Assembly: GCA_039679385.1 (NCBI GenBank)
Contig: JBDKVB010000134.1
Span: forward strand, 1 to 43,182
From: Armatimonadia bacterium
GTDB lineage: Bacteria; Armatimonadota; Zipacnadia; Zipacnadales; JABUFB01
Direction of reading: 5' to 3'
DNA length: 43,182 bases
The notes beneath the pieces are model-generated. The model was not told where the DNA came from, searched no databases, and was given only the letters and a program-made list of their open reading frames with translations. Below are positions 6,730-37,304 of this stretch, piece after piece (the stretch's first letter is position 1; every line of letters starts with the position of its first letter). Position numbers and translations under genes: made by a program.

Positions 6730-6746
6730 GTGAAGGGGAGTGCAGG

Positions 6747-7440: not shown

Positions 7441-7513
7441 GTGGCCCTACGGCCTGGCGCTGGAGGAGCGGGACCTGGTGGTGTGCCTTGCAGGCCTTCT
7501 GAGGAGTTGGGAC

Positions 7514-9523
7514 ATGTCCGCTATCAAAGAACTTGAGGTAGGCGGCCAGCGGTTGCCTGTGCAGGAGTTCCAGGCAGTCATCATCGGATCCGGCGCCGCC
7601 GGCCTGAACTGCGCCGAGCACCTCCACGAGCTGGGTGTGACGGACATCGCACTACTCACCTCGCGGCTGGGAAGTGGGACCTCGGCGAACTCGGGCTCCG
7701 ACAAACAGACCTACTACAAGATGGGGGTCTTCGGCGACGTCGCCGACAGCCCGATGGAGTTCGCGCAGTCGCTGGTTGCCGGAGGCATGTGCCACGGTGA
7801 CATGGCCTACGTCGAGGGCCTGGGATCGCTGCCGGAGTTCTTCCACCTGGTGCGCAACGGGGTGGGGTTTCCGCACAATCGCTACGGGGCCTACGTGGGC
7901 TACAAGACGGACCACGACCCGCGGCAGCGCGCTACCTCAGCAGGCCCGAAGACCTCGATGCAGATGGTCGAGAAGAGCCTGGCGAAGGTCCGGCGGAAGG
8001 GGACGCCCATCTTCGACGGCTTCGAGGCAATCCGGCTGCTGACCGCGCCCGTCGGAAGCGACCCGACAGCCCGCAGGATCGTCGGCGTGCTGGCCCTGGA
8101 TCGCTCACGCCTGGCGGAGAAGAGCACCGGTCTCGTGGTGTTCCTGGCTCCGCAGGTTGTTCTGGCCACGGGAGGTCCCGGGGAGCTGTACAAGACCTCG
8201 GTGTATCCGCCGGGCCAGGTCGGTAGTCACGGGCTGGCGCTGGAAGTCGGCTGCCAGGCGAGCAACCTCACCGAGTCGCAGTTCGGACTGGCCTCAACGG
8301 GATTCCGCTGGAACCTGTCGGGCACCTACCAGCAGGTGATCCCCTGCTACTTCAGCACCGATACGGCCGGCGGAGACGTGCGGTACTTCCTCAACGATTA
8401 CTTCCAGTCGATGCGCCAGGAGGCCACGAACATCTTCCTGAAGGGCTACCAGTGGCCCTTCCATGCGGAGCGGCTGTTGGACTACGGCTCCTCCCTCGTG
8501 GACATCGCGGTGTTCAACGAGACGCGGGCAGGGCGCAAGGTCTACATGGACTTCCTGCGCAACCCGGTAAGTGGCGGCAACCTGGAGGAGTTCAGCCTCG
8601 AGAACCTCGAACCGGAAGCTCGCGTCTACCTGGAGCGGTCGGGGGCGCTACAGGCGACGCCTTACGAGCGCCTGGAGCACATGAACCCGGCGGCGATCGA
8701 GATCTACACCGAGCACGGCGTGGACCTGCACGAACCGCTGGAGGTTGCGGTTTGCTCGCAACACTGCAACGGTGGCCTGACGGTGGACCTGTGGTGGCGG
8801 ACGAAGGTGGACGGCCTGTTTGCGATTGGTGAGGTCGCCGGAACCCATGGCGTGCGACCCGGCGGGAGTGCACTGAATGCCGGGCAGGTCGGCGGCCTGC
8901 GAGTGGCTCAGTACATCGCGCACCAGCAGTCAACGGGGAAGACGGGGGAGCTTCCGTCCCCGGAGGAAGTGCGAGCGCAGATTGAGGCGGAGAGGGAAGA
9001 GATTGGCCGGTACCTGAAGGCGGGTGCCGACGCGCCGAACGTGGGCGAAGTCCGGCGAGAGATCCAGGAGCGCATGACCGAGTACGCTTCCCAGGTGCGA
9101 AGCCGGGAGGGTGTGGAGAAGGCCCTGCGGGAGGCGGAAGTGCTCTGCGAGAGGATTGCTACGGTAGGGCAGAAGCTGCACCGACGGGAGCAGTTGGTTG
9201 CGGCGCTGGAGAACGAGCATCTGTGCCGCACTCACCTCGCTTTCCTGACGGCCCTGCAGAACCTGATTGAGCGTGGCGGAGGGTCACGAGGCGCCTACGT
9301 CGTCCTGGACGAAGAGGGTGACCGGGTGGTGGCGACGCCGAAGGGCGAGAGCCTGCGGCACCGAAGCGAGAATCTGCCGATGCGCCAGGAGGTCCTGGAG
9401 GTCCATGCGGAGGATGGCAGGCACTTCAAGGCCCTGGTGACGCCCGTGCGTCCGCTTCCGGAGGACGACTCGTGGTATGAGACGACCTGGCGGGAGTGGC
9501 GAGAGGGCACCGTGTTCGATTGA
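7514..9523 (+). CDS. FAD-dependent oxidoreductase of the succinate dehydrogenase/fumarate reductase flavoprotein type
   Basis: 669 residues from ATG 7514. An in-frame GTG at 7478 is possible, but GAGGAG lies seven bases before the ATG. The FAD-binding fold starts with VIIGSGAAGLNCAEHL (G25-G30). Other family marks are LGSGTSANSGSDKQTYYKMG, the second dinucleotide motif VVLATGGPGELYK and the C-terminal FAD contact GLFAIGEVAGTHGVRPGGSALNAGQVGGLR (about 424-453). The last 220 residues form a long charged helical region like the C-terminal domain of succinate dehydrogenase flavoproteins. No iron-sulfur or membrane anchor subunit is adjacent, so it is probably a soluble flavoenzyme acting on an unknown substrate. 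L-aspartate oxidase is less likely given length and divergent motifs. Confidence 0.82.
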   Translation: MSAIKELEVGGQRLPVQEFQAVIIGSGAAGLNCAEHLHELGVTDIALLTSRLGSGTSANSGSDKQTYYKMGVFGDVADSPMEFAQSLVAGGMCHGDMAYVEGLGSLPEFFHLVRNGVGFPHNRYGAYVGYKTDHDPRQRATSAGPKTSMQMVEKSLAKVRRKGTPIFDGFEAIRLLTAPVGSDPTARRIVGVLALDRSRLAEKSTGLVVFLAPQVVLATGGPGELYKTSVYPPGQVGSHGLALEVGCQASNLTESQFGLASTGFRWNLSGTYQQVIPCYFSTDTAGGDVRYFLNDYFQSMRQEATNIFLKGYQWPFHAERLLDYGSSLVDIAVFNETRAGRKVYMDFLRNPVSGGNLEEFSLENLEPEARVYLERSGALQATPYERLEHMNPAAIEIYTEHGVDLHEPLEVAVCSQHCNGGLTVDLWWRTKVDGLFAIGEVAGTHGVRPGGSALNAGQVGGLRVAQYIAHQQSTGKTGELPSPEEVRAQIEAEREEIGRYLKAGADAPNVGEVRREIQERMTEYASQVRSREGVEKALREAEVLCERIATVGQKLHRREQLVAALENEHLCRTHLAFLTALQNLIERGGGSRGAYVVLDEEGDRVVATPKGESLRHRSENLPMRQEVLEVHAEDGRHFKALVTPVRPLPEDDSWYETTWREWREGTVFD

Positions 9524-9585
9524 GGTTTGCCTGCAGCGGCTCACAGAGAGTCCCACACGTCACGGCGATACGGAGCGCGTTCATC

Positions 9586-10749
9586 GTGCCTAGAAGCAAG
9601 CTTGTGATCGCTCTTGCAGTGCTGGTGAGCCTGACGGTGACCTGCTGGGCTCAGGCCCCGGAGTCTGCCGTCAAGCGTTACCAGAAGGGTATGAGCCTGA
9701 AGCGGACGGGGGCGGTGAATCAGGCCCTTGCGGAGATGAAGGCGGCGGTCCAGCTCTACCCCAAGTACATGGAGGCGCACTACGCTCTGGGCTGGCTGTA
9801 CCGGCAGGTAGGAGCCGGTGACAAGGCAGTGGAGGAGTTCCGCGAGGTCATCCGCATCGCCCCGCAGAGCCCGGAGGCGATTGAGTCGGCGCGCGCGATC
9901 CAGCGGATTCGGCTGGGGCCGGACTACAGCGGAGGAAGGGAAGCCGGTCGGATTGCCTTCGCCTCGGAACGGGGAGGCAACACCGATATCTATGCGATGG
10001 ATGTGAACGGTGGCGGGCTGATTCGGCTGACGGCCCATCCGGCTGTGGACGATTCGCCGGCATGGTCGCCCGATGGTCGCCGAATCGCCTTCGTGTCGGA
10101 GCGCGACGGGAACCGCGAAGTGTATGTGACCACCCTCGACGGCAGTGAGGTACAGCGCATCACCGACAACTCGGCGGCTGACAGCCACCCGGTGTGGTCG
10201 CCCGAGGGCCGACAGATTGCCTTCGAGTCGAACCGTGGGGGAGCCTGGGACGTGTATACTGTGTCGCTGGACACCGGCTTCACGAGCCAGATCACGCGGG
10301 GTGCAGGGAACAACCGGGTTGGAAGCTGGTCACCCGATGGGCGACGGCTCGCGATCCTGAGCGACCGGGACGGGGTGCAGAAGATATACCTGGTTGAGCT
10401 GGGCACCGGGACGGTCCGGCGGCTCAATGCAAACCCAATCGCCGAGGGGCGGCCGGTGTTCAGTCACGATGGTCAGTATGTGTACTTCTCCTGGCAGTTC
10501 GAGTCGAACCTGCAGGTGTGCCGCGAGAGCATCGACGGGAAGAACCTTGCGAATGTGACCCGCAGCCCCTATAACGATGAGTTGTGCGATGTCTCGGCGG
10601 ATGGCAAGCAGTTGCTGATCGTGTCGGATCGGCAGAGCGACCCGGAGCTGTACCTGGTGGAGGTGGCTTCGGCTTCAGTGCGTCGGCTGACGCTCAACCC
10701 GGGTGCAGATCGAGATGGAGTGTTTGCACCGCGCCCGAAGACAGACTAG
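9586..10749 (+). CDS. Exported TPR and TolB-like (PD40) beta-propeller protein
   Basis: 387 residues from GTG 9586, which follows GGAG by ten bases and directly opens a signal peptide (SKLVIALAVLVSLTVTCWAQA); longer in-frame starts would bury that peptide and overlap the flavoprotein gene. Residues about 25-110 hold two TPR-like helix pairs (AVNQALAEMKAAVQLYPKYMEAHYALGWLYRQVG). From about 125 onward there are about six PD40 blades with the repeated pattern RIAFASxRxGNxxIYxMDxxG and SPAWSPDGRRIAF. This is the propeller of TolB and related periplasmic proteins. It probably serves as a periplasmic scaffold for protein binding. A full Tol-Pal gene set is not present here. The next two genes also encode repeat scaffolds. 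Confidence 0.85.
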   Translation: MPRSKLVIALAVLVSLTVTCWAQAPESAVKRYQKGMSLKRTGAVNQALAEMKAAVQLYPKYMEAHYALGWLYRQVGAGDKAVEEFREVIRIAPQSPEAIESARAIQRIRLGPDYSGGREAGRIAFASERGGNTDIYAMDVNGGGLIRLTAHPAVDDSPAWSPDGRRIAFVSERDGNREVYVTTLDGSEVQRITDNSAADSHPVWSPEGRQIAFESNRGGAWDVYTVSLDTGFTSQITRGAGNNRVGSWSPDGRRLAILSDRDGVQKIYLVELGTGTVRRLNANPIAEGRPVFSHDGQYVYFSWQFESNLQVCRESIDGKNLANVTRSPYNDELCDVSADGKQLLIVSDRQSDPELYLVEVASASVRRLTLNPGADRDGVFAPRPKTD

Positions 10750-10851
10750 AGCTGCGCAGAGGGACCCAGAGGGAGCACCACCGCAGAACGCGCCCGGTTC
10801 GTGTGGGCGCTTACACCACACATGACGCACTTTAGGGGAGTGGGTACGGGC

Positions 10852-12132
10852 ATGGACGAACAGCACGCGCTCTGCCTGGCACTGGTACCCTTCGATCCAT
10901 TCTACGCCGAGGTCTGGTCCGCCGGCGTGGCGGCGGCCTTCGGGACGCCACCCTTGTCGAAGACTTACCGCTGCGTGCGAGGAGAAGACCTCTTCCTTGC
11001 CGCACCCTTCACCGACACGATCCACCAGAGCATCGACCGGGCTGAGCTGATTGTCGCGGACATCACCGGCCGGGACCCGAGCGTCATGTACCAACTGGGG
11101 TACGCCGTCCATGCCGACCGGCCGATCCTGCTGGTCGGCCGCGAGGGCTCGCAGAGCCCGCTGCCTCCCGCCCGGGCACAGCTCATCACCTATCCTCTCG
11201 AGCCGACCGCCGATGGCCTGGCGTCCTTCGCTGCCCGTCTGAGCAAGGTCGTCAGTGAGATGCCGCCACCGGTGCCGCAGGAGACGCTGGCGGCGCTGAT
11301 GGAGGGCCTCAAGTCACGGGAATGGAACGAGCGACGCGAGGCGGCACGAGGTCTCGGCCGTCTCAAGGCCCGGGCGTCGGTTCCTGCGCTGGTGGATGCG
11401 CTCTCCGACGAGAACTGGAACGTGCGTGCAGCGGTCTCCTGGGCACTTCGTGAGATCGGCGATCCGATGATTGTGGAGATGGTGGTGGCCCTGCTGCACG
11501 ATCCAATGCCCTTCGTGCGTCGCTCGGCGGCCTGGACCCTGCGTGAGATCGGCGGCGACACGGCAATACGGGCCCTGCTGACGCACTTCGACGACCCTTC
11601 GCCCGGTGTGCGTGAGACGGTGGCCTGGGCCTTCAAGGAGCTTCAGGATGCGCGCGCGATCCCGAAGTTGATTGCGGCGCTGGATAACGATGAGTATGCA
11701 GTGCGACGCGCAGCCGCTGAGGCCTTGTGCGTGAACACCGATCCGGCGGCGCTTCCGGTGCTGCGGCTCGCGCTGACCAGTCCGGATGCGGGAGTTCGGG
11801 GTGCCGCGGCGCGAGCCGTGGGGATCATGAAGGACCTCGCCAGTGTGGAGCTGCTCGTGCGGCTGCTCAACGACCCCGGGTGGCCGGTGCGACAGGCGGC
11901 TGCCCGTGCCCTGGGCGAGATCGGCGACGCTCGTGCGGCGAAGGCCCTTGGACGCGTTCTGGCCGACCCCGAGGAGGACGTGCGCTGGGCAGCGATTGAG
12001 GCTCTGACGCGCCTCGACTGCCCCGAGGCGCAGGAGATCGTGACGAAGGCGGCCCAGGACGAGTCGCAGCCGGAGTTGGTACGGGGTGTTGCTGAGGCCG
12101 CCGTGGCTGCGCGTGAGGGTAAACCGTCCTAA
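10852..12132 (+). CDS. Nucleotide-binding-like (TIR/deoxyribosyltransferase-like) domain fused to HEAT repeats
   Basis: 426 residues from ATG 10852, preceded by AGGGGAG; an earlier in-frame ATG at 10822 lacks a ribosome site. Residues about 5-130 contain LALVPFDPFYAEVW, then IHQSIDRAELIVADITGRDPSVMYQLGYAVHADRPILLV. That ADITGRxPxVxYxLGYA signature marks a family of Rossmann-like domains related to nucleoside 2-deoxyribosyltransferases and TIR-like effector domains. From about 150 to 420 follow about eight HEAT/PBS-lyase repeats of 31 residues (for example DENWNVRAAVSWALREIGDP, DPGWPVRQAAARALGEIGDA). No signal peptide, so it should be cytoplasmic. HEAT repeats bind proteins or, in some families, nucleic acid. 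Fusions of this kind occur among signalling and defence proteins, but nothing else here shows defence. Enzymatic activity is uncertain. Confidence 0.78.
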   Translation: MDEQHALCLALVPFDPFYAEVWSAGVAAAFGTPPLSKTYRCVRGEDLFLAAPFTDTIHQSIDRAELIVADITGRDPSVMYQLGYAVHADRPILLVGREGSQSPLPPARAQLITYPLEPTADGLASFAARLSKVVSEMPPPVPQETLAALMEGLKSREWNERREAARGLGRLKARASVPALVDALSDENWNVRAAVSWALREIGDPMIVEMVVALLHDPMPFVRRSAAWTLREIGGDTAIRALLTHFDDPSPGVRETVAWAFKELQDARAIPKLIAALDNDEYAVRRAAAEALCVNTDPAALPVLRLALTSPDAGVRGAAARAVGIMKDLASVELLVRLLNDPGWPVRQAAARALGEIGDARAAKALGRVLADPEEDVRWAAIEALTRLDCPEAQEIVTKAAQDESQPELVRGVAEAAVAAREGKPS

Positions 12133-18966: not shown

Positions 18967-19551
18967 GTGGGCCTTTTCTCCGGCAGGGAAGAGAAAAAGC
19001 AGCGGGCGAGACGCGAGCAGTTCGAAGCGTTAGCCGGCAAGTATTACCGTGACATCTTCAACGCGGCCTTGCGAATGACAGGCAGCTATGCGGATGCGGA
19101 AGACCTGACTCAGGAGGCCTTCATGAAGGCCTACGTGGCCTTCGATCAGTTCACCCTGGGCACGAACTTCCGGGCCTGGCTGTTGCGGATCGTCACGAAC
19201 ACACATATCAACCGGTACCGACGGGCCTGTCGCACGCCAGACACCATGGCGTGGGAGGACCTGACCGACGGCGGGACACGTCGCGTGGCGGAAGAAGCCT
19301 CCAAGGACCCACTTCCGGAGGACGAGGTTCTCGCCGGGATCCCGGACGAGACCATCGGACCTGCGCTGGCGGCGCTGCCTGACGAGTTCCGTGAGGCCGT
19401 CATTCTGTCGGACATGCACGAGCTGTCGTACAAGGAGATCGCCGAGAGCCTCGGCATCCCTCTGGGTACGGTACGGAGCCGGATCTTCCGTGGCAGGCGG
19501 TTGCTGCGGGAGTCCTTGGCCGAGTACGCCAGAGCCAACGGGATCATCTAG
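18967..19551 (+). CDS. ECF-type RNA polymerase sigma factor
   Basis: 194 residues from GTG 18967 with GAGGGAG upstream. Region 2 (about 20-90) contains YYRDIFNAALRMTGSYADAEDLTQEAFMKAYVAFDQF and FRAWLLRIVTNTHINRYRR, the core-binding and -10 recognition helices. Region 4 (about 130-185) contains IGPALAALPDEFREAVILSDMHELSYKEIAESLGIPLGTVRSRIFRGRRLLRE, with the helix-turn-helix. There is no region 3, as expected for extracytoplasmic-function sigma factors. The nearest resemblance I recognise is to SigR/RpoE-like ECF groups. The gene lies nine bases before a zinc anti-sigma gene and downstream of tandem ECF-like promoters, indicating a self-activating pair. Confidence 0.95.
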   Translation: MGLFSGREEKKQRARREQFEALAGKYYRDIFNAALRMTGSYADAEDLTQEAFMKAYVAFDQFTLGTNFRAWLLRIVTNTHINRYRRACRTPDTMAWEDLTDGGTRRVAEEASKDPLPEDEVLAGIPDETIGPALAALPDEFREAVILSDMHELSYKEIAESLGIPLGTVRSRIFRGRRLLRESLAEYARANGII

Positions 19552-26466: not shown

Positions 26467-29400
26467 TCACGATCCAAGCAGAGAGAAGGCCGCCCAGTAG
26501 TAGGGATGGGCGTACCTGGCGGCGGCTGAGTCTGGAGCCCGCTGGTAGGCCTCTCGTGCCTGCCGGAGGAAGACGCGCTGAGCCTCGCACAGGGCCAGAG
26601 GCGGGTCAGCGCCGCGAAGAAGCAGAGCGTGGTAGCGGCCCACCAGGTCGGCAGTCGCTTCATCCGGAACGCCCCAGAGGGTGGCGGTGACGGCCTGTGA
26701 TCCAGCGAGCATGAAGGCGACGGCCAGGCCGAGGATGCCCTCACCTCGGGCATAGGCTCCCTGGGCGGTGTCGCAGGCTGAGAGGGTCACCATGCGGGCG
26801 TTCAGCCGCAGCCCCAGGATCGCGGGGGCGTAGAGGCGTCCGTCACCGGGCGAGGGGAGACTCGCCTGCGAACCACGCAGACCGGGATTCGTGAGGGCCA
26901 GGAAAGAGTGCTGCGGCCGATCGGGGTAGAGGACGCAATGGGTCGCGAGGAGCAGGAAGCCGAAACGGTCGAGCTCTGGCGCCTGCAGCAGCGAGGGAGA
27001 AGCTGCCCAGGAGAGCAGGCCGAGGTTGCCCTGCCAGCGCACCTGCTCAGGCGTCTCGTAGAGGCTTGCCGGGCCTGGGGCCGCTGAGAGAGCCGCCTGG
27101 GCCTCAAGACGCGTGCCGGGCAAGGGCGGCAGCGGATCCAGGGAAGCGGGAGAGAAAGCCAGAACCTTCGGTGTCGGGATGGGCCGGTCACGCGTCCGAG
27201 CCCGCGCATCGGCCAGGGTCAGGACGGGATCGGCGAAGGCACACAGGTTCGGTGAGGGCGCAGGCCTGGTAGCCCAGGCCTCCTGCAGCATCTGATAGAC
27301 CGTGACCGAAGGCAGCACGTGGAAGGCCCAGCGCTCGGCGGCGAACTGGACTGAGGGCGCCGCGAAGACCCGTCCCGCAGGGGCCTCGTCCACCTCGGGT
27401 GCGAAGGTGGTCACCAGGGCTCCGAAGGGCAGGTAGCACAGCGGACCATCGGGCACGACGGCGACCGTGGCGGCCCCGGTCTGCTGCAGCTCATCCTCCA
27501 CTGGGCGCAAGGTCAGGTCATAGAGAGCAGCCGCGACGCGCAGATGCTGGTCTTGCCAGGTCAGGGCCTCGGTGCGCTGCGCTTCTGTGCCCTTGCCGAG
27601 GGCCTCCATCGGCTGTCGCAGCAGCCAGACAAGCTCCTCAAGGGTGAACTGGGCGGCCAGCTCCTGCGGAGTCAGGAGCCCCTCGGTGTCGGGTGGCAGA
27701 CCGGCCGCCTGTCCTGCCCGGAGACGCGCCTGATGCAGTCGGCCCAGGACCTGTTGGCCCACCAGCTCGCGGACGTGACCAGTGAAGAGCTCGTCGCCTG
27801 CTCCGGCTGAGAGGGTTGGGGTTTCGCGGAGGCTGAGACCGTCGCGGGTGACGAGGATCGCGAGAAGCCGTCCGCGGAGGAGCTTGAGTTCCAGCAGCGC
27901 CGCGCTGGTCGGAAGGCTGCGGCGCAGTCCGTCGAGAGTGATGAGGTGCGGCGCGAGCGGCCGGGTGAAGAGTGTGTCGGACCAGGCCATCTCCGCGCTG
28001 CGACGCCGAGCACTCACCTCCTGAAGCTCCGTGCGAAGGGCGAGTTGCTGCGCCGGGGCGCCGGGCGTGCTGAGCAGCCGGGAGGTTAGCAGCGCCTCGC
28101 GGTCGGTCAGGTCGGCTAGCTCTGTCCAGGGGCTCTGGGCTCGCGCGTCCGGCGACAGGGCCGCAAAGGCGAGAAGACAGTCGCCGAGGACCCGGGCACG
28201 GGCGCTCTCGGAGAAGTGCAGAATCGCTTCCTCGTAACTCGACCAGCCCTGCCACAGTGAGGGGACGGGCAGGCCGAAGCCGGTCCAGAAGCTCGGCTCC
28301 TTCTCGCCGAGCTCCTGCGGGACCAGCGGCAGGCCGCTGTGGCGCATCTTGAGGAGCAGTTCGAGGAGCTGGTCGTAGACCCAGCTTCTCTGGCCGAAGT
28401 GACCGGCACGCAGGGCAGGCGTCGTGGCGGCACGGGTCCGCAGTTGCTCGATGAGGTTGACCGCGCGGGCGAAGTGCCGGTAGCTTGCGTAGTAGTCGCC
28501 GGGTTGTCCGCGACGGCGCAGGACCTCACCGAGACCGGCCTCGACCTTGTACAGGTCCTCCGGGAGCCAGGTCGCACCGGCAGCAGTGAGTGTTCGGGCC
28601 ATCTCACGCAGGCTGGTCTCCGACTGGCGCAGGGAGTTGAGCGCCTCCTCGTTGCGTCCGGCCCGCAGCAGAGCGATGCCCAGGTTGCTGTGGCAGGAGG
28701 CCTGCTCGAGGACCGTCCCGGGCACCGACTGGTAGAGGGCAAGCGCCTTCTGGTAGGCCTGCAACTCTCCGGCGGCATCGCCAAGGTCGCCATAGGCCGC
28801 GCCAAGGTTCTGCAGGCAGGAGGCCTGTTGGCGGGCTGTGTCGGGGAGGGACTGATACAGCTCTAGGGCCCTGAGAGTGGTGTCCACGGAGCGTTGCGAG
28901 AGCCCCGATTCACAGTAGGCGCTGCCAAGGTTCTGGAGGACTTCAGCCTGCTTGCGGGCCGAGTTCGGTTGGCCTTCGGCAAGACGCAGCGCCTCCTGCG
29001 TGAGAGAGATCTTGCGTTCCAGATCGCCCAGTCGCCCATAGGCGACGCCAAGGTCCCGCAGTGCGTCGACCTGGAGGGACTCCGTGCCCGGCGTCTTGCG
29101 GCCCAACTCGACGGCCTGCTCAAGCCACTCGATCTGCCGCTGGTGTTGCCCGCGGTCGCCTGCCAGCACGCCGAGGGTGAGGAGGCATTGGAGTTGCTCC
29201 GTTTCGGCTTGTGGGACTTGCCGGTAGAGGCTGAGGGCCTGCTCGCAGGAGGACTCCTGCCCGGCGCTGTCCTTGAGGTGTCCGCGGGCGTCTCCGGTCG
29301 CCTGGAGACACTGGGCCTGCTCCCAGGTCGTGTTCGGAACGCGCCGGTACAGGTCCAGCGCCTCGGAGAGACGCTGAAGACCCGCTGCGGGCTGACCGGT

Positions 29401-29640
29401 TCGGGTCTGGGCGGTGCCGAGGTTGTACAGGCAGCCGGCTTGAAGGGCCTCGGTGCCCACAACTCGCTGGAGGCTGGTCAGGGCGGCGGTCCAGTGGGCG
29501 ATAGCGGCCGGTGTGTCTCCGGCCCGGTCGGCCTCCAGCCCGGCACGGAACTCGGCGCGAGCCTGCTCAACCTCGTCAGCCGCGCAGGCGACGAAGCCGG
29601 TGAAGCCTAACAGAAGCGTGCAGATCAGGGCGCGCAGCAT
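26467..29640 (-). CDS. Exported TPR-CHAT (caspase-like) protein
   Basis: 1057 residues from ATG 29640 (AGGGGA about ten bases upstream); longer in-frame starts carry an Arg-rich run with no signal. A signal peptide (LRALICTLLLGFTGFVACAA) includes a possible lipobox FVAC. Residues about 30-400 form about nine TPR units of 40 residues, repeating LxNLGxAYxxxGdlxxxlxxxxxALxLYxxxP. A helical linker follows, then a CHAT domain (about 730-1057) with the candidate dyad His901 (LLLATHCVL) and Cys956 (VTLSACDTAQGAYARGEGILGLAVAF), then GSQAVTATLWGVPD and the closing YYWAAFSLLGS. Both catalytic residues are present, so it is probably an active caspase-like protease, in the periplasm or anchored to the membrane. 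It is the last gene of the ECF-sigma operon, 44 bp after the YbjN-like gene. TPR-CHAT proteins occur in CRISPR type III-E (Csx29) and gasdermin loci, but those are cytoplasmic and this one is exported. Confidence 0.9.
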   Translation of the reverse strand: MLRALICTLLLGFTGFVACAADEVEQARAEFRAGLEADRAGDTPAAIAHWTAALTSLQRVVGTEALQAGCLYNLGTAQTRTGQPAAGLQRLSEALDLYRRVPNTTWEQAQCLQATGDARGHLKDSAGQESSCEQALSLYRQVPQAETEQLQCLLTLGVLAGDRGQHQRQIEWLEQAVELGRKTPGTESLQVDALRDLGVAYGRLGDLERKISLTQEALRLAEGQPNSARKQAEVLQNLGSAYCESGLSQRSVDTTLRALELYQSLPDTARQQASCLQNLGAAYGDLGDAAGELQAYQKALALYQSVPGTVLEQASCHSNLGIALLRAGRNEEALNSLRQSETSLREMARTLTAAGATWLPEDLYKVEAGLGEVLRRRGQPGDYYASYRHFARAVNLIEQLRTRAATTPALRAGHFGQRSWVYDQLLELLLKMRHSGLPLVPQELGEKEPSFWTGFGLPVPSLWQGWSSYEEAILHFSESARARVLGDCLLAFAALSPDARAQSPWTELADLTDREALLTSRLLSTPGAPAQQLALRTELQEVSARRRSAEMAWSDTLFTRPLAPHLITLDGLRRSLPTSAALLELKLLRGRLLAILVTRDGLSLRETPTLSAGAGDELFTGHVRELVGQQVLGRLHQARLRAGQAAGLPPDTEGLLTPQELAAQFTLEELVWLLRQPMEALGKGTEAQRTEALTWQDQHLRVAAALYDLTLRPVEDELQQTGAATVAVVPDGPLCYLPFGALVTTFAPEVDEAPAGRVFAAPSVQFAAERWAFHVLPSVTVYQMLQEAWATRPAPSPNLCAFADPVLTLADARARTRDRPIPTPKVLAFSPASLDPLPPLPGTRLEAQAALSAAPGPASLYETPEQVRWQGNLGLLSWAASPSLLQAPELDRFGFLLLATHCVLYPDRPQHSFLALTNPGLRGSQASLPSPGDGRLYAPAILGLRLNARMVTLSACDTAQGAYARGEGILGLAVAFMLAGSQAVTATLWGVPDEATADLVGRYHALLLRGADPPLALCEAQRVFLRQAREAYQRAPDSAAARYAHPYYWAAFSLLGS

Positions 29641-29684
29641 CGCCAACCATCCCCTGAAGGGCGTCGGGCGTCCTTCCCGCGCAG

Positions 29685-30227
29685 CTACTCCACGGCGAGC
29701 AAGTCCTTGAAGACGGGCTTGAGCTCGTCGGCCATCCCCGCGACTTCCATCACCATCGCGCGTAGCAGCTTGTCGTTGATGTGCGTCTCCTCGACGCCGC
29801 AACCGGCGAAGAACATGCCGTCCTCATAGCCCACATGCGACAGCCAGGGCCCCGCGTTCACCTGGGCGACCTTGCGCCACAGGGCAGTCGGCACGTCCTC
29901 GTCTTTGGCCGCCACGATATCGGCGTAGGCCACCGCTCGGTTCTCGTGAAGGCGGACAACGACCAGTTGCAGGCCGTTGTCGCCGCGCATCAGCAGGCAG
30001 CCGGTGGTGGGGTCCTCCATCATGTAGTGGAGGCCAGTGGCCTTGAGGAGCGTCTCCAGCTTGCCCGGCGGAGGTGGCGTCGGCGGAGTCGTTGCCGCCG
30101 GTTCCTCGCACCAGGCAAGCTGAGTCAGGGCACCCAGTATCGCCACCAGTGCAAGGGCGAGGCATACGACGGCCCTGGTGCGGTTGCCCTGCGATATTGA
30201 GCTAGGAGCGCGGTTGGGCGCGAGCAT
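29685..30227 (-). CDS. Exported YbjN-like (type III chaperone-fold) protein
   Basis: 180 residues from ATG 30227 with AGGGTG six bases upstream; a GTG nine bases earlier is in frame but overlaps that site. A signal peptide or anchor (RAVVCLALALVAILGALTQLAWC) is followed by a Pro-rich spacer and a compact domain (about 50-180). It reads LETLLKATGLHYMMEDPTTGCLLMRGDNGLQLVVVRLHENRAVAYADI with pairs of beta strands, then WRKVAQVNAGPWLSHVGYEDGMFFAGCGVEE and a final long helix. This alternation resembles YbjN and type III secretion chaperone-like proteins, which bind partner proteins. An interaction with the downstream TPR-CHAT or upstream metallopeptidase is possible. Assignment is by pattern only. 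Confidence 0.55.
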   Translation of the reverse strand: MLAPNRAPSSISQGNRTRAVVCLALALVAILGALTQLAWCEEPAATTPPTPPPPGKLETLLKATGLHYMMEDPTTGCLLMRGDNGLQLVVVRLHENRAVAYADIVAAKDEDVPTALWRKVAQVNAGPWLSHVGYEDGMFFAGCGVEETHINDKLLRAMVMEVAGMADELKPVFKDLLAVE

Positions 30228-30242
30228 CGCAATCACCCTGGA

Positions 30243-32117
30243 CTAGGAGATTGGGCCCTGGGTCAGGGCCAGAGCCTTGATCTTGCCGGCGTCGACTAGA
30301 ACCGCCAGACGGGCGCCGGAGTAGTAGCGGTACGGGCGACCGTCGCCGAGACGCACCGTGGCATCGAAGGTCGGGAGGAGCTTGTCCAGACTCGCCACCG
30401 GGTCGCCGAGGCGCAGGCGACCGGTCTCGGCTCCATCGACCGAGACGACGGCGACCGCTGTGCTGCTCCCCGTGAGGCGGGCGCGGATCAGCGACTGGTG
30501 GAAGAAGGTCAACTCGAGACCGTCGGACAGGTAGCGCCAGCTCGCGAGCGGAGCAGACGCTCCCGCAGCCGCCGGTCCAGACTTGCCGCCAAAGGGCACG
30601 ACTGCTTCGGGACTTCCCAGTCGGCGCACCACTGCCTGCAAGCTCGTGCCCAGGTACAGCGCCGCCTCGCGGCAGAGGAAGTGGACGCTGACCTCCCTGG
30701 GCCGAGGCGCAAGGAGCTTGCTCTCGGGTCTCGGCTCACGCCCCAGGCTGCGGCAGAGGGAGAGATAGCGCGGGTAGGTGTACTGCCACTGTGCGCTCGG
30801 GTAGGGGAGCTCACGTAGTGCGGTCTCGAGTTCACCGGCGGCCTGTTGGCGCTCGGCCTCCGTGCCCTGACCGGCCAGCAGAAGGGCCAGGTTGATAGTG
30901 GGCGACTTGGCCAGAGCTGCGGGCGCATCGCTGGACACCAACTCCGGCGCCAGACGGAGCAGCTCCAGAGCCTTGTCCGGCTGGCCCAGCAGCTTCAGCG
31001 CCAGCGCCATGTTGTTTGCCATCGCCCAGCGAGTGTCCTCGGCATGGCGCTCCAGCGGCACGGCCGCCATGGTCTCCTTCGCGATGGCCGCCAGAGGACC
31101 GTCCGGTGCGATCAGATAGGCGTAGGCAAGGTTGCCCATCGCAAGCGGGTACTCGGTCTGGAGCGTCAGCGCTTCCTTGAGGTGACCGACGGCCTCTTCC
31201 CACTTCCTGCGCAGGGCAGCGAGTTGCTCCGGCGTGAGACCTGCGCGTCGCGGCTCGACCGGAAGGAAGGTGGCATACCCGATGGGCACCGGCTGGCCGA
31301 GATCACAGCGCTCCCAGTAGTCGCCGGGGAGCTCGCGGTAGTACTGCAGCAGCAGGCAGTAGCCAAGATTGCAGTGGACCTCGGGCGACTTGGGGAAGGT
31401 CTCGAGAGCGCCACGGAAGCACTGCTCGGCACAGGGGTAGTTGCCGGCGCGAAGCAGGTCCACGCCGACCTCGAAGTCAAGGGCCGCCTGCCAGAGCTCT
31501 GCGCTGATCTTGTCAAGGGCGGCGAGACGCTCGGTGTAGGTGGGATGGTCGCCGCCGAGGGCTTCCCAGAAGCTGTTGTCGCCAAGACGCTCGCGCAGGT
31601 GAGAGAAGGCCAGGACCGTGCCGCCGGGGTCATAGCCGGCACTGGCAGCGAGCTTGGCCCCGAGAGCATCGGCCTCGATCTCCATCTCCCGCGAGGTGGC
31701 CAGCTCCAAGACGACATCCTCCTGCTGGAGAGCGCGGAGACGGTCGCGGGACTCCTGCAGGTGGTGTCCGAGAACCACATGGGCCAGCTCGTGGGCCAGG
31801 ATACAGGCCAGGGCATCGACGCTGTCATCGGCAGCCTTGTCTATCAGGCCGAGGTTCACCGAGATGCCAATCTCCAGGTGATCCGGCGTACCACCCAGTA
31901 TGCGAGAAGCAGCGTTCGGGTCGTCATCGGGACGGATGGTCACCGTGGGCCGTCCGGCAAGCCAGGCAGGTGCCTCCGTAGCGGACCACAGCCGAGCGAA
32001 GGCCTCCTCCGCACGAGCCTGCCACCACGAGACCGGGTGCGTGGTCTCGGCGAAGGTGGCCGTGACGACGGTTGCGAGCAGGGACAGAGCCAAAGCCATC
32101 TGTGCCAGGCGGCGCAT
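30243..32117 (-). CDS. Exported M48-family metallopeptidase with TPR repeats
   Basis: 624 residues from ATG 32117, which follows GAGGAGGTGAG; longer in-frame starts are rejected because they overlap the upstream gene. Signal peptide MRRLAQMALALSLLATVVTATFA. The M48 peptidase domain (about 45-230) has H109-E-L-A-H113 (HELAHVVLGHH) and the third zinc ligand E146 in SREMEIEADALGAKLA, as in BepA/LoiP and HtpX-type enzymes. Next, TPR repeats (about 235-480: NYPCAEQCFRGALETFPKSPEVHCNLGYCLL, HLKEALTLQTEYPLAMGNLAYAYLI), then a beta-rich domain (about 500-624). The M48-TPR order matches the periplasmic protease-chaperone BepA, which acts on outer-membrane proteins, but this protein is longer with an extra C-terminal domain. 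Fifteen bases separate it from the YbjN-like gene. Confidence 0.9.
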   Translation of the reverse strand: MRRLAQMALALSLLATVVTATFAETTHPVSWWQARAEEAFARLWSATEAPAWLAGRPTVTIRPDDDPNAASRILGGTPDHLEIGISVNLGLIDKAADDSVDALACILAHELAHVVLGHHLQESRDRLRALQQEDVVLELATSREMEIEADALGAKLAASAGYDPGGTVLAFSHLRERLGDNSFWEALGGDHPTYTERLAALDKISAELWQAALDFEVGVDLLRAGNYPCAEQCFRGALETFPKSPEVHCNLGYCLLLQYYRELPGDYWERCDLGQPVPIGYATFLPVEPRRAGLTPEQLAALRRKWEEAVGHLKEALTLQTEYPLAMGNLAYAYLIAPDGPLAAIAKETMAAVPLERHAEDTRWAMANNMALALKLLGQPDKALELLRLAPELVSSDAPAALAKSPTINLALLLAGQGTEAERQQAAGELETALRELPYPSAQWQYTYPRYLSLCRSLGREPRPESKLLAPRPREVSVHFLCREAALYLGTSLQAVVRRLGSPEAVVPFGGKSGPAAAGASAPLASWRYLSDGLELTFFHQSLIRARLTGSSTAVAVVSVDGAETGRLRLGDPVASLDKLLPTFDATVRLGDGRPYRYYSGARLAVLVDAGKIKALALTQGPIS

Positions 32118-32122
32118 CGATC

Positions 32123-32521
32123 TCACCTCCTCAGTCCAGGCCCGGTTGGCTGCCTCGTTACCTGAAGCCACCTCAGAGCCGTCAGATCGTTGGTGCGCAA
32201 GGTCACACGTGTTGGTGACGCGCTGAGCGTCGTCAGCAGGGCACCGGCGTGCGGAAGTGTGTTGGGAACCAGCGACGCCGTCAGCCCGGTAGGACTGAGC
32301 CTGCAAGGCGACTTCGAGAGCGCGCAGGGACGCGGGCAGGGATTGCAGGCGAAGGCGGCTTCGACTGCGAGGCCGCTCAAGGTCCAGCCATGAGGTCCCG
32401 GCGCTTCGACCGCGGGGAAGACTTGCGTGGTCGTCGGAGTTGCCGGCAGCGAGACCTCCTCAGCGTAGCCTGACCCGCAGAGGAGCGCAGCGGCCACCAT
32501 CACCAGGGCGATGCGTGTCAT
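32123..32521 (-). CDS. Small exported orphan protein with four-cysteine cluster
   Basis: 132 residues. Its ATG overlaps the stop of the anti-sigma gene (ATGA) and its stop lies five bases before the M48 start. Signal peptide MTRIALVMVAAALLCGSGYA. The mature part is Pro and Thr-rich with a cluster C59-x2-C62-x3-C66-x6-C73 (ACNPCPRPCALSKSPC) that may bind metal or form disulfides. The rest (HAGALLTTLSASPTRVTLRTNDLTALRWLQVTR) is beta-like. I know no family for it. The gene position, between the anti-sigma factor and the protease, suggests a periplasmic ligand, sensor or substrate of the system. The coding case rests on the ATGA overlap, short gaps and signal peptide. Confidence 0.62.
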   Translation of the reverse strand: MTRIALVMVAAALLCGSGYAEEVSLPATPTTTQVFPAVEAPGPHGWTLSGLAVEAAFACNPCPRPCALSKSPCRLSPTGLTASLVPNTLPHAGALLTTLSASPTRVTLRTNDLTALRWLQVTRQPTGPGLRR

Positions 32522-33315
32522 GGCTGGCGCACCTCCGCGTTCTCGGCGGCTTCGAGGGACTGCAGCAGCGCCGTCGCCCGGGGCGTGTCGCGGCGAAGGC
32601 CTTCGGTCTCCTCCACATCGAAGCGCCTTACTGCGCCCTTGTCGAGGTCGTTGACGAGGCCCTCCCGGGCCATGCGGTCGAGGTCGACGGTCACGGGCTT
32701 GCGCGGGCTGGTTGGCTCCGCGAAGGCCAGGAGAGCGGAAGGTGCGATTGGGTTGACAAGCTCCTGGGGTGGTGTCGGCGTGGTCTCGGCCGGAGCTGAA
32801 GGCCTGACGCCTTGCGGTCGCGACGGCGCGCGCCGGGGTGCCCGACGCGTCCGAGGCAGCGGATGCCGGGCTGCCGCCATCTGAACTCGTGGTGCGAAAG
32901 CAGGCAAAGGAACAGGCGGTGCGACCTGGGGAGGACTCGGCGGCGTGACGGAGGGTGCAGTTACGTGAGGGGCAGTTGGCGGCGGAAGCAGGTACCGTCC
33001 GGGGCCGAGGACCGTCACCACGAGCAAGACCAGGGCCGTCGCTGCAAGGGAGGCGAGGGCCCAGCGACGTCCCACGGCCGGCTCGAAACGGTAGCGCACT
33101 GAGACCGGCGGCGCGACCTCCGCAGTGAGCTCGCCGACCAGGCGCCGGCACTGGTCGCACATCTGCAGGTGGGCCTTGATCACCTGCGCCTTGCCTTTGG
33201 GCATCCGTCCTTCGGCGTACCGCGCGAGTTCCTCGGCCGTGAAGGCGGGGCATTCGTCTCCCACCTGATCCGTGACGGCCTTCCAGAACCCGTCGTCCGG
33301 GGTAGGTGTGTCCAT
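32518..33315 (-). CDS. Zinc-finger transmembrane anti-sigma factor (zf-HC2 type)
   Basis: 265 residues, starting five bases after the sigma factor stop. N-terminal ZAS-like region: CPAFTAEELARYAEGRMPKGKAQVIKAHLQMCDQC with zinc motif H49-x3-C53-x2-C56. A membrane helix (LASLAATALVLLVVTVLG, about 87-104) follows, then about 160 residues outside, Pro-rich (PPPTAPHVTAPSVTPPSPPQVAPP) and Arg-rich segments before a helical end (RMAREGLVNDLDKGAVRRFDVEE). It should tether the adjacent ECF sigma factor to the membrane and release it when the outer part receives a signal. It may be cleaved or read by the following metallopeptidase; this is inference. Confidence 0.85.
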   Translation of the reverse strand: MDTPTPDDGFWKAVTDQVGDECPAFTAEELARYAEGRMPKGKAQVIKAHLQMCDQCRRLVGELTAEVAPPVSVRYRFEPAVGRRWALASLAATALVLLVVTVLGPGRYLLPPPTAPHVTAPSVTPPSPPQVAPPVPLPAFAPRVQMAAARHPLPRTRRAPRRAPSRPQGVRPSAPAETTPTPPQELVNPIAPSALLAFAEPTSPRKPVTVDLDRMAREGLVNDLDKGAVRRFDVEETEGLRRDTPRATALLQSLEAAENAEVRQP

Positions 33316-33320
33316 GGCTC

Positions 33321-33938
33321 TCAGCTCCCGACCCCAAGGGTGTCGGCGGTGAAGCCCTTCTTCTCCAGACAGTCCCGCAGCTTTCGGTCGGTCCGGTACA
33401 CGCGCGTGCCCACGGTGTTGATGCTCAGGTGGAGCGCTTCGGCGATCTCGTTGTGCTGCTGACCGTGGAAGCGATGCCTGACCCAGACTTCGCGCATCTC
33501 GAGAGCGACCGGCTGGAGGCAGTCGGCTAGAGCCTGTCTGAGCATCGACTGCAAGGTGAGGCGCTCAGGATTGCCGGTCGATCCGTTGGCTCCGCCGACC
33601 CGCTCGAAGGCCTCCGGGTCCTCCTCGGCACCCATCTCGCTCTCGAGGGTGTAGCGCTGACTGCGTGTCGCCTCCTGCTGGTGGAACCGCATCTGGGTCT
33701 TGAAGAGAACCGCCAACGCCCAGGTCTCGAAACGCGCTCGCCACTGGAACCCGGCAAGCTGTCGGAGGATGACGAGGAGCGTTTCCTGAAGGATCTCCTC
33801 GCGGGCCTCGGGCGGCACGCCTCGCTTTGAGAGTGCGCGCTCGAAGATGCCCCGGCAGTGCTGGGTGACCAGCTCGCAGGCGGCCTGGTCGCCCTGCTGG
33901 GCTCTCCGGACGTCTCGTGGGCTGAGCTCCTGGGCCAT
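33321..33938 (-). CDS. ECF-type RNA polymerase sigma factor, operon leader
   Basis: 205 residues from ATG 33938 with GGAGGA six bases upstream. Region 2 includes ARRAQQGDQAACELVTQHCRGIFERALSKRG-like segments and EILQETLLVILRQLAGF, with the -10 helix ARFETWALAVLFKTQMRFHQ. Region 4 (about 145-200) includes LTLQSMLRQALADCLQPVALEMREVWVRHRFHGQQHNEIAEALHLSINTVGTRVYRTDRKLRDCLEK, carrying the helix-turn-helix. A Glu/Gly-rich spacer (MGAEEDPEAFERVGGANGSTGN) separates them, which is typical for ECF types. It heads a six-gene minus-strand unit of anti-sigma factor, exported small protein, M48 peptidase, YbjN-like and TPR-CHAT. An extended -10 element lies 40 bases upstream. Confidence 0.92.
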   Translation of the reverse strand: MAQELSPRDVRRAQQGDQAACELVTQHCRGIFERALSKRGVPPEAREEILQETLLVILRQLAGFQWRARFETWALAVLFKTQMRFHQQEATRSQRYTLESEMGAEEDPEAFERVGGANGSTGNPERLTLQSMLRQALADCLQPVALEMREVWVRHRFHGQQHNEIAEALHLSINTVGTRVYRTDRKLRDCLEKKGFTADTLGVGS

Positions 33939-34069: not shown

Positions 34070-35518
34070 CTAGGGCTGGGTGATGCGGTAGGTGGCGAGG
34101 GTGGTCTGGTCAACCACACGCTTGCCGCGGGTGGACCAGGCGCGGATCATGAAGAAGCCCGGACCGTCGTCGACGGCCGGCCAGGGGGCAATCAGAGCGA
34201 CGCCGGTGGAAGTGTAGGCGACCTGGCAGGCTTCGGGCGGCACCTCGGTGAGGTCGCCGTTGCGAAACAGAACGCCGCGCAGGCTGTCTCCCTGCCAGTC
34301 GTAGGCTGCGGCCACCCGGCTCTTGGCGCTCGTACCACCGAAGTTGATTGACAAGTGGTAGCCGTAGGACCGCGAGGGCTTCCGCCGTGTGATGAGATCC
34401 ACGATGAGGTGACGGTTCGCCCGCGACACGGTGACAATGCGCAGGTCGGCCCTGGGGTACCTGGCCGAGGAGTCTGTGTCTGCGATGGGATCGTTGATCA
34501 CGACCTGCGGCGGGACGAAGCGTCGACCGGGCCAGGTGCGGACCCCGACCTCGCCAAAGAGCTCGTTTGCGCGGGCGAAGGAGGTCAGCAGTGGGTCGAT
34601 GCCTCCGCCCTGCGTACGGTAGGACAGGATGGCCTTGCGCTTGTCGATGGTCTGCCCCAGTGTGAGCGGGAAGGCAAGCCACCGGGTGTCGCTGCCGGAG
34701 GCCAGGCGCGCAGGCGGTTCCAGGGCAAGCCAGGGCCGGTAGCGCCTCGGCGTCGGCCAATGAGGACGATGGATGAGGTAGCTGTAGGTGCGACAGCGGC
34801 CGGCAAAGCTCTCGCCCTCCAGTGTCAGCTCCTCCAGGGCGTAGCGGACGAAGGCGTAGGTTGGCCAATGGTCGACGTGTATGTCGTTGGGGTGGAGCGT
34901 GATGACGGCGTCAGGCTGCAGACGCTTCAGCAGCGTCTTGATGTCGGCAAGGGCGCACTCCCCGGCGTAGGGCGTGCTACGGGAGAACGTGTTGGTGTAG
35001 GGTGAGCGTGTGGTCCGCGTTCTCACTGATCGCACGGGGTACTCCCGGGACCAGTGGTTGGGAAGCCACATCTGGTTGAGGTAGTTGTTGGGATAGCCCA
35101 GGAAGGTGACGGCGGACTCGGGCAGCCCCAGGTACTCCATCGCCTTCAGTGTTTCCTGCTGACGCCGATAGCCCAGGCGGACGAAAGCGGCAGAGCTTGG
35201 CCGCAAGGCCTCCTCGAAGAGCACCACGGACATTTCGGGGTACTCACCGTTGGTCATCAGGGCGATGTGCACTTGCGCCTTCGTCAGCAGGGAACGCTGG
35301 ATCAGCCCGGCGCAACTGAGGGTCTCGTCGTCGGGATGGGGAGCGAAGATGAGGATCCGTTCGCCCGCCCGGGGCTCCTGCATCAGCTCCAGCGGGGGCT
35401 CCGAGTGCCGGTTCAGCTCGTAGAGGGAATGAGACAGGGCCAGACGGCGCCCTGCCTCGCCGAGGAGCATGACAAGGACCACCGGGATCAGCCAGTATAG
35501 CCAGCGACGCCTAGGCAT
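34070..35518 (-). CDS. PIG-L/LmbE-family deacetylase, membrane-anchored
   Basis: 482 residues from ATG 35518, with GAGGAG eight bases upstream; a longer in-frame start would overlap the GNAT gene further. An N-terminal anchor helix (WLYWLIPVVLVMLLGEAG) is followed by the LmbE fold (about 50-290): FAPHPDDETLSCAG with H61, D63 and D64 of the zinc site, EEALRPSSAAFVRLGYRRQQETLKAM, and LHPNDIHVDHW carrying the remaining His ligands. This family removes N-acetyl groups from GlcNAc-type substrates. The C-terminal 190 residues are an unassigned beta-rich part (VVINDPIADTDS to end). It follows and overlaps by eight bases a GNAT acetyltransferase gene, so the two are translationally coupled. Confidence 0.85.
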   Translation of the reverse strand: MPRRRWLYWLIPVVLVMLLGEAGRRLALSHSLYELNRHSEPPLELMQEPRAGERILIFAPHPDDETLSCAGLIQRSLLTKAQVHIALMTNGEYPEMSVVLFEEALRPSSAAFVRLGYRRQQETLKAMEYLGLPESAVTFLGYPNNYLNQMWLPNHWSREYPVRSVRTRTTRSPYTNTFSRSTPYAGECALADIKTLLKRLQPDAVITLHPNDIHVDHWPTYAFVRYALEELTLEGESFAGRCRTYSYLIHRPHWPTPRRYRPWLALEPPARLASGSDTRWLAFPLTLGQTIDKRKAILSYRTQGGGIDPLLTSFARANELFGEVGVRTWPGRRFVPPQVVINDPIADTDSSARYPRADLRIVTVSRANRHLIVDLITRRKPSRSYGYHLSINFGGTSAKSRVAAAYDWQGDSLRGVLFRNGDLTEVPPEACQVAYTSTGVALIAPWPAVDDGPGFFMIRAWSTRGKRVVDQTTLATYRITQP

Positions 35519-36179
35519 GGTCGGTCTCCTCTGAGGGAGCGCCGCCGGCTGTACGGAGGTCACGCAACATGATCAGCCATTCGCCCTGAGTGTCCCTTGT
35601 GGTGCCACGCTGGACGAAGCCCACGCGCTCGTAGATGCGGATCGCGGGCTCATTGCCCGGCCGCACCTCCAGGCGGATCAGGTGAGCGCCAAGGCTCTCC
35701 AGGTATTCCACGGCCTTCGCCACCAGTTGCCCGCCGAGCCCCTGGCCCTGAAGGTCCGGACGTACCGCGACGGAGAAGATACGGGCGTCGCTGTGCAGTT
35801 CGGGCTGTCGGGACTCGTGCCACAGGGCCAGCCAGTTCCTCACGGCCACCACCGCGGGACGAAGACCGATCCCGTACCTGAAGGTGAGCCAGCGGAGGAG
35901 CAGGCGGAAGATATGGCCACGGAACACAGCCACGCGGAAGACGCGCGAGAGACGCCGTGGGGCAAAGACGTAGCCGGAGACTACACCCTCGACCGTACCG
36001 ACCAGGAGCGCCCTGGGCTCGGCCTCAAGGCAGATGGCGAAGACATCGGCCATCACCTGGGGCCCGATCGGGTGGCCGACGTAGTGCTCAACGCTCTCGG
36101 GGAAAGCAGCCAGGAAGACCTCTGCGATGGCCGGGAGGTCCTGCACGGTGGCCTGTCTGATCTCGAGGGACTCCTGCAA
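35511..36179 (-). CDS. GNAT family N-acetyltransferase
   Basis: 222 residues starting at a TTG (36179), chosen because AGGAGA lies six or seven bases upstream and no ATG fits. It has the N-terminal strand LEIRQATVQDLPAIAEVFLAAFPES, the hydrophobic stretch RVAVFRGHIFRLLLRWLTF, then IFSVAVRPDLQGQGLGGQLVAKAVEYLESLGAHLIRLEVRPGNEPAIRIYERVGFVQRG. The QGQGLGG loop (about 154-160) binds acetyl-CoA. Length and pattern suggest a RimI-like enzyme or a small-molecule acetyltransferase. The middle region is longer than usual and could touch membrane. It overlaps the PIG-L deacetylase gene by eight bases, pairing an acetylase with a deacetylase. Confidence 0.88.
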   Translation of the reverse strand: MQESLEIRQATVQDLPAIAEVFLAAFPESVEHYVGHPIGPQVMADVFAICLEAEPRALLVGTVEGVVSGYVFAPRRLSRVFRVAVFRGHIFRLLLRWLTFRYGIGLRPAVVAVRNWLALWHESRQPELHSDARIFSVAVRPDLQGQGLGGQLVAKAVEYLESLGAHLIRLEVRPGNEPAIRIYERVGFVQRGTTRDTQGEWLIMLRDLRTAGGAPSEETDHA

Positions 36180-36305
36180 GGCAGGTCTCCTGTCTGAGGC
36201 CGGGGCCTGGAGTTGCGGACTGGTGTACGTGTGGGAAGTCTAGATGTCGGCGGAAGGCGTTACCGGAAGGATGGGAGTACCCTCCGGGGGACCAGGAAGT
36301 GCAGC

Positions 36306-37304
36306 ATGAACTGTGAGTTGCGACCTTCGCTGCCTGCCATCACCTGCAGCGCCCTTAGTCTACCTCGTAAACGCGGCCTGGGACTGCTACTGTTCCTGGC
36401 GGCCTCGATGCTGTGGGTGCTCCCTGGATGCTACCATACCGGGGCTCGTGGTGCCGACTCCCATCCTGGGCCTGCGGCACCGGGTGAGGCCAGTCCCGCA
36501 CCGACGGCAGCGGAGCCGCCGACCCCTTCGGTACTGGAGAACTCGCTTGAGCCTGCCGCCTCGGGGCCGGCAGTTGAGGCACCGGTGCGACGAGCACCGC
36601 AAGTGGCGAAGGTGGTCCACGGTCCCCGCAGTCGGCACTGGGTCGCGCTCACCATCGACGACGGCCCGCATCCGGGGTACACACCCCGACTGCTGGCGAC
36701 CCTCAAGCACTACAAGGTGAAGGCCACGTTCTTCGTGGTCGGCGAGATGGCAGACCGCTATCCTGAGTTGGTGCAGCAGGAGATTGCGGACGGGCACAGT
36801 ATCGGCACCCACACCTACACTCATGCTAACCTGCGCACGCTGAGCGAGAAGCAAGTGCAGAACGAGATCCGGGAAGGTGGGGCCTCGGTGAAGCGGTTCA
36901 CCGGGTCGACCCCGACGATCCTGCGCCCGCCCTTCGGGTTCTACAACACCTACGTGGCCCATGCAGCCAACGCGCTTGGGTACACCGTCGTCCTGTGGAG
37001 CCTGCACTCCGGAGACAGCCAGGGCCTCAAGCCCGACCGGATCATGGAGCGGATTCACGGCGTGAAGGATGGTGACCTCATCCTCATGCACGACGGCTAT
37101 GGCTACACGCCGAGGGTCCTGCCGCGAGTGCTTGAGTACCTCAAGAGCCGTGGCTTCGAGTTCGTCACCGTGCCTGAGATGTTGCAGCAGATGCCGCCTG
37201 ATGCCTCCAAGCCGAAGGTGAGTCCCCGGAGTGCCCTCAGCTCTCTGTCCACTCCAGCATGTCGGTTTCCACGAGCTTGCGGTCTTGCAGCACCAGGGTC
37301 TTGA
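36306..37304 (+). CDS. Polysaccharide deacetylase (NodB domain) lipoprotein
   Basis: 332 residues from ATG 36306 with AGGA eight bases upstream. Lipoprotein signal with lipobox LPGC (C42), after a long charged N-region. A Pro/Ala-rich spacer (about 48-100) leads to the NodB domain (about 108-310): T116-I-D-D-G-P (catalytic and metal Asp at D118/D119), H169-T-Y-T-H173 (metal His pair), RPPFGFYNT, and LILMHDGYG near the end. The protein should remove acetyl groups from a polysaccharide or peptidoglycan at the cell surface. The last 23 codons overlap the 3' end of the convergent GH38 gene, which gives a low-complexity tail (SPRSALSSLSTPACRF). The next gene may use the same envelope glycan, but this is not shown. 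Confidence 0.9.
   Translation: MNCELRPSLPAITCSALSLPRKRGLGLLLFLAASMLWVLPGCYHTGARGADSHPGPAAPGEASPAPTAAEPPTPSVLENSLEPAASGPAVEAPVRRAPQVAKVVHGPRSRHWVALTIDDGPHPGYTPRLLATLKHYKVKATFFVVGEMADRYPELVQQEIADGHSIGTHTYTHANLRTLSEKQVQNEIREGGASVKRFTGSTPTILRPPFGFYNTYVAHAANALGYTVVLWSLHSGDSQGLKPDRIMERIHGVKDGDLILMHDGYGYTPRVLPRVLEYLKSRGFEFVTVPEMLQQMPPDASKPKVSPRSALSSLSTPACRFPRACGLAAPGS

Follow-up and report, generated by a model that had tools for sequence, protein, structure and literature searches.

What does an extracytoplasmic function (ECF) sigma factor control when its gene is followed, on the same strand, by genes for an exported metallopeptidase and an exported caspase-clan protease? This question is raised by a six-gene cluster in contig JBDKVB010000134.1 of an Armatimonadia bacterium, a stretch of 43,182 nucleotides (hereafter the window) whose genome was grouped with Armatimonadota by its named relatives; few partners or substrates are known for exported bacterial caspase homologues. 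All six genes lie co-directionally on the minus strand, from 33938 to 26467, and encode, in this order, an ECF sigma factor, a zinc-type anti-sigma factor, a small exported protein, an M48-TPR metallopeptidase, a YbjN-like protein and a TPR-CHAT protease, which confirmed the place and arrangement reported in an initial annotation made from the letters alone. From the sigma gene to the CHAT gene the intergenic gaps were 5, −4, 5, 6 or 15, and 44 bp, the fourth depending on whether the YbjN-like gene starts at a GTG (6 bp) or at the ATG at 30227 (15 bp). A search of the 5.6 Mb genome with PF12770 returned one CHAT protein, that of the cluster, and genes of the same kinds are found grouped in members of three phyla; for these two reasons, the cluster is more than chance. 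It is probably an undescribed envelope-maintenance system, and the reading that we favour, with rather more confidence than doubt, is that of a sigma-gated periplasmic set of proteases and a chaperone serving envelope protein quality control or remodelling.

Both proteases have intact active sites and predicted N-terminal export signals, in agreement with the earlier picture of two exported proteases in an ECF-sigma cluster. The TPR-CHAT protein (26467..29640, minus strand, 1057 aa) scored 166.4 bits against the CHAT family (cut-off 24) and 80.8 bits against TPR_12, and the catalytic His (in ATHC) and Cys (in SACDT) are present in its sequence, from which proteolysis is predicted. Its closest CHAT relative (L074, 40%) was uninformative on neighbours, the contig starting within the gene, and the CHAT query gave no match in viral contigs. 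The M48 protein (30243..32117, minus strand, 624 aa) matched Peptidase_M48 (PF01435) with 47.1 bits (cut-off 20.3) and carries TPRs; its HELAH motif at residues 109-113 and distal Glu146 are intact and invariant across relatives, and it keeps a His-Pro similar to the plug of BepA, its closest solved M48-TPR relative. In a simple hydrophobicity scan, the M48, YbjN-like and CHAT proteins each showed a hydrophobic N-terminal segment, the predicted export signal, and the genome encodes Omp85 proteins, whose presence suggests that the cell has an outer membrane.

The last 185 residues of the M48 protein, a region without prior annotation, were modelled as two repeats with a predicted local distance difference test score (pLDDT) of 85. 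This model matched tandem BLIP-type structures (4IFA, Z 10.9; 4H0A, 10.4; 4YGT, 10.1), and the predicted tandem BLIP-type domain covers about residues 475-624. A BamE (SmpA-OmlA) domain was considered for the same region; it gave no Pfam match of note and a Z of 4.9 over one repeat, and the tandem BLIP-type fold fits better. By analogy with BepA, the M48-TPR protein may bind misassembled envelope proteins and cleave or assist them, with the tandem BLIP-type domain as a possible additional docking surface. TPR-CHAT would be a second, regulated endoprotease, whose place C14 caspases may take in related loci.

The fifth gene (29685..30236, minus strand, 183 aa, or 180 from the ATG at 30227) had been annotated as encoding a YbjN-like scaffold; the likeness to YbjN stood as a predicted fold, while the word scaffold is better replaced by chaperone-like. 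Against Pfam YbjN (PF10722) the protein scored 13.0 bits, below the cut-off of 22, so that sequence does not place it in the family. Its model, with a pLDDT of 80 as a whole and of about 81-95 for residues 51-180, matched VecA (Z 13.9), ExsC (13.0) and Escherichia coli YbjN (10.5), with the next unrelated fold at 5.9, and at 10-18% identity to solved structures the predicted alpha-beta4-alpha-beta2-alpha arrangement is the class I type III chaperone/YbjN fold. Chaperones of this class bind their partners at unfolded segments, and small exported low-complexity genes adjoin most M48-YbjN pairs in the relatives' loci. For both reasons, we infer that the chaperone-like protein would hold the small exported protein (32123..32521, minus strand, 132 aa, low complexity), its foremost candidate client, or another unfolded segment. 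The open reading frame (ORF) of the small protein is the weakest of the six members, with a weak codon bias that one other frame equals or exceeds; it is backed by a ribosome-binding site, an ATGA overlap with the anti-sigma gene, a signal peptide recognized by eye and the occurrence of small exported genes in the equivalent setting of relatives. No homology was shown among the small exported proteins of different loci.

The remaining two genes supply the putative switch. The sigma factor (33321..33938, minus strand, 205 aa) matched the sigma-70 family model TIGR02937 with 58.8 bits (cut-off 42.9) and Pfam Sigma70_r4_2 with 27.5 bits (cut-off 25.7), region 2 remaining below its cut-off. The anti-sigma factor (32518..33315, minus strand, 265 aa), 5 bp from the sigma gene, scored 21.6 bits against zf-HC2, marginally below the cut-off of 22.2. 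It carries the zinc motif HxxxCxxC (HLQMCDQC) at residue 49, one transmembrane (TM) segment at residues 86-104 and, past it, a long outer tail of about 160 residues that is largely proline-rich, and thus combines the zinc motif, adjoining ECF sigma gene and TM segment by which ZAS anti-sigma factors are recognized. Family scores and motifs upheld the identities first proposed for the sigma, anti-sigma, M48-TPR and TPR-CHAT proteins. Release of sigma on stress is inferred from knowledge of these families: the anti-sigma factor would keep sigma at the membrane until a first cut in the outer tail, one of the M50 (site-2 type) proteases encoded in the genome would make the next cut, and sigma would then transcribe the operon, itself included. 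The window also holds a second ECF-type sigma gene (18967-19551, plus strand) that strongly matched both region 2 and region 4.

Loci that unite these gene kinds occur in Armatimonadota, Ignavibacteria and Planctomycetota and show a real module. Neighbour tables were made by simple ORF calling and home-made profiles, many loci lie on contigs of metagenome-assembled genomes, several of which end inside the module, and genome samples were partial outside Armatimonadota. In Ignavibacteria RIFOXYC2_FULL_35_21 (L109) all six gene kinds lie on one strand, in an order that differs from that of the window: sigma (3880-4560), a one-TM protein without zinc motif in the anti-sigma position (4561-5409), TPR-CHAT (5444-8671), M48 (8741-10597), YbjN-like (10611-11120) and small exported protein (11142-11525). 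On the opposite strand of this contig, there is a second CHAT/TPR gene pair, split between two ORFs (114-3064, minus strand). A second copy in the same genome (L205) and a second genome of the class (L210) contain a sigma-antisigma-M48 trio in which the M48 start overlaps the anti-sigma stop and M48 is the sole operon protease, while a third genome of the class (L209) has M48-YbjN-small-CHAT without sigma. Four Planctomycetota genomes (L216, L217, L218 and L219; gene families of these runs were checked for L216) carry genes for a small exported protein, M48, YbjN-like protein, Ser/Thr kinase and ECF sigma factor on one strand, and in L217 (2634-15254) two tandem M48-YbjN pairs flank a WD40-C14 caspase gene, with the kinase and ECF sigma genes on the same strand. 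In L216 and L218 a CHAT gene is located some 5 kb upstream, on the same strand, and in L219 CHAT is oriented divergently to the run; since Planctomycetota commonly carry CHAT genes, this nearness is weaker evidence than in the window. That a kinase occupies the anti-sigma place with sigma kept argues that sigma controls the gene set, Ser/Thr kinases being a known mode of ECF regulation (PMC8103513).

The trios and the kinase also bear on how the anti-sigma factor is cut. One of the operon's own proteases could act as site-1 protease, cutting the outer tail and so freeing sigma, which would make the switch activate itself: in type III-E systems the TPR-CHAT protein Csx29 cleaves Csx30, which lifts the inhibition of an ECF sigma factor (PMC10028731), a precedent that makes such a cut reasonable, and in the window the long proline-rich tail is on the same side as the predicted destination of the proteases. 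The trios L205 and L210 fit this proposal as well, and since such sigma-antisigma-M48 trios exist, M48 is likelier than CHAT to make the cut if an operon protease does so. However, the replacement of the anti-sigma factor by a kinase in Planctomycetota means that the proteases do not need it, and sigma and anti-sigma are both missing from several M48-YbjN loci; we consider self-activation unlikely. A wider proposal, also unlikely in our judgement, is a hitherto undescribed envelope signalling module in at least three phyla, in which the exported pair of M48-TPR and CHAT or C14, together with the periplasmic type III-chaperone-like protein and its small unfolded client, would feed back on the ECF sigma factor by cutting its inhibitor, as a periplasmic counterpart of Craspase.

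Within Armatimonadota, an M48 match at E 1e-10 was found in 33 of 291 genomes (the window's own included). The YbjN-like family occurs in seven, and directly follows this M48 in four of these, again counting the window's; the copies in the other three (G261, G262 and G217) adjoin neither M48 nor CHAT. Lone YbjN-like genes of this kind lie in L193 (4346-4861), L194 (4939-5454) and L195 (3084-3653), with an ORF bearing a hydrophobic N-terminal stretch directly upstream in L193 and L194. Three full-length relatives from outside the window's order, L068 (Armatimonadetes CG06), L069 (Capsulimonas sp.) and L070 (Armatimonadetes 341R), share the run small exported-M48-YbjN on one strand; L069 also has a CHAT gene convergent with the YbjN gene, and L070 has the run without CHAT. 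Sigma and anti-sigma genes lie upstream of M48 in L073, a C14-WD40 caspase gene stands between such a pair and M48 in L071, and CHAT follows M48 in L118 and in L099, where an anti-sigma-like membrane protein precedes them. Several further candidates were dropped: CHAT after YbjN in L068, where TPRs alone were visible up to the contig end; a single M48 and CHAT run in L072, where M48 has a Laminin_G protein as its same-strand neighbour and the CHAT fragment lies on the opposite strand; sigma-profile matches directly after M48 in L097, L100 and L101 (E 1e-3 to 1e-6), which disappeared with a broader sigma profile; and L099 6458-7537 as a sigma factor, a resemblance by eye with no Pfam match.

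A sister M48 lineage in Fimbriimonadaceae shares the full architecture of the window protein; in 13 of 26 genomes its gene has an exported C14 caspase no more than two genes away, and in one it adjoins CHAT. M48-bearing Fimbriimonadaceae have 0 to 8 C14 genes per genome, which puts chance adjacency well below 1% per genome, the 13 cases being far from independent owing to shared descent. Across the Fimbriimonadaceae genomes G077-G161, C14 caspase genes occur in 68 of 85, with up to 8 per genome, and are often about 1000 aa long. In the M48 tree, a branch with support 100/99 split the YbjN-linked proteins, from three phyla, from the C14-linked ones of Armatimonadota; the window protein forms a long branch inside the YbjN-linked set, its exact placement being uncertain.

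Alternatively, the unit might consist of the sigma, anti-sigma, small, M48 and YbjN-like genes, with CHAT a passenger that merely lies downstream. The 44 bp before CHAT is the largest gap of the operon, and both the sigma-antisigma-M48 trios (L205, L210) and small-M48-YbjN in L070 occur without it. Yet the sole CHAT gene found in 5.6 Mb sits in this operon, and CHAT belongs to the same run in L109 and L209, in another phylum, adjoins M48-YbjN in L069 and comes after M48 in L099 and L118, which makes a passenger role very improbable.

Several observations weigh against the favoured reading of a sigma-gated envelope set. A sigma-70-type promoter scan gave no match, ECF sites being outside the range of the scan. 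Against the BepA equivalog NF052400 the window M48 protein scored 23.5 bits, far under the cut-off of 570, which makes BepA-like action a matter of analogy. The three other genomes of the window's family gave distant M48 and CHAT matches only; the module is missing in the nearest relatives and is therefore patchy, and the expected conservation there was not borne out. Of the predicted six-gene order, what survived is that the gene set recurs elsewhere: the order is not fixed, no sigma was seen with M48-YbjN in L068, L069, L070 or L209, and several M48-YbjN loci lack CHAT in their run.

The cluster is bordered downstream by a convergent prmC gene, ending at 26420, and upstream, at 131 bp, by a same-strand PIG-L deacetylase gene; the housekeeping genes prmC and prfA are among its neighbours. 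In the upstream region (34070-37304), genes for a PIG-L type deacetylase and a GNAT acetyltransferase on the same strand and for a polysaccharide deacetylase on the opposite strand possibly form a separate envelope-glycan group. The initial annotation had also suggested programmed damage, with sigma turning on exported proteases to the detriment of the cell or of an invader. CHAT and C14 do belong to the caspase clan, and an immune role is known for some bacterial CHAT proteins, as in Craspase. Against this, PADLOC returned no defence-family match of note, no CRISPR-like repeats were found at 15000-43182 (direct repeat families of at least 22 bp within 200 bp), and the cluster contains no pore-former or toxin gene; the neighbours are of the housekeeping kind and the BepA-like partner is of the envelope-maintaining kind. 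The suggestion was not upheld, and we regard a damage or defence role as highly unlikely.

Compared with known systems, the cluster resembles parts of several, and in the favoured reading it would operate in the manner of sigmaE/BepA, to which a caspase-clan protease has been added. With E. coli sigmaE (RpoE)/RseA it shares an ECF sigma factor, a membrane-anchored anti-sigma factor with an outer tail, exported proteases and M50 in the genome (PMC8103513), but its anti-sigma factor is zinc-type, its proteases are co-directional with sigma in one cluster, and it adds a caspase-clan protease and a YbjN-like protein. With BepA, the M48 protein shares an exported M48 domain followed by TPRs and the same zinc ligands, plug His-Pro included, and differs in its extra C-terminal tandem BLIP-type domain and its linkage to sigma, YbjN-like and caspase-clan genes. 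Like type III-E CRISPR (Craspase/CASP: Csx29, Csx30, CASP-sigma), the window encodes TPR-CHAT, an ECF sigma factor and a sigma inhibitor together (PMC10028731); in contrast, it has no CRISPR-like repeats nearby, its CHAT protein has an N-terminal export signal, its inhibitor is of the one-TM zinc type, and its sigma factor did not match the III-E type model NF041236 (39 bits, far below the cut-off of 100). The sigma-linked metacaspase operons of Myxococcus and other bacteria likewise join sigma and caspase-clan genes in one operon, although those encode C14 metacaspases and no M48 or YbjN partners are mentioned there (PMC3501461). The YbjN-like protein resembles YbjN and the class I type III secretion chaperones ExsC and VecA in predicted fold, and differs in its N-terminal hydrophobic export segment and in having no secretion-system gene in the cluster.

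In agreement with the initial annotation, which knew of no described system with this combination, the open-licence papers searched did not describe an ECF sigma factor in control of M48-TPR together with YbjN-like and CHAT or C14 proteins. The recurring unit of M48-TPR, chaperone-like protein and ECF sigma factor offers a defined gene set, including candidates for the switch and for the client, for probing exported caspase homologues, and suggests that envelope quality control after the sigmaE/BepA logic takes a different form in Armatimonadota, Ignavibacteria and Planctomycetota. Every part belongs to a known family or fold; what appears new is an ECF-linked envelope protease system with a recurrent pairing of a metalloprotease and a caspase-clan protease.

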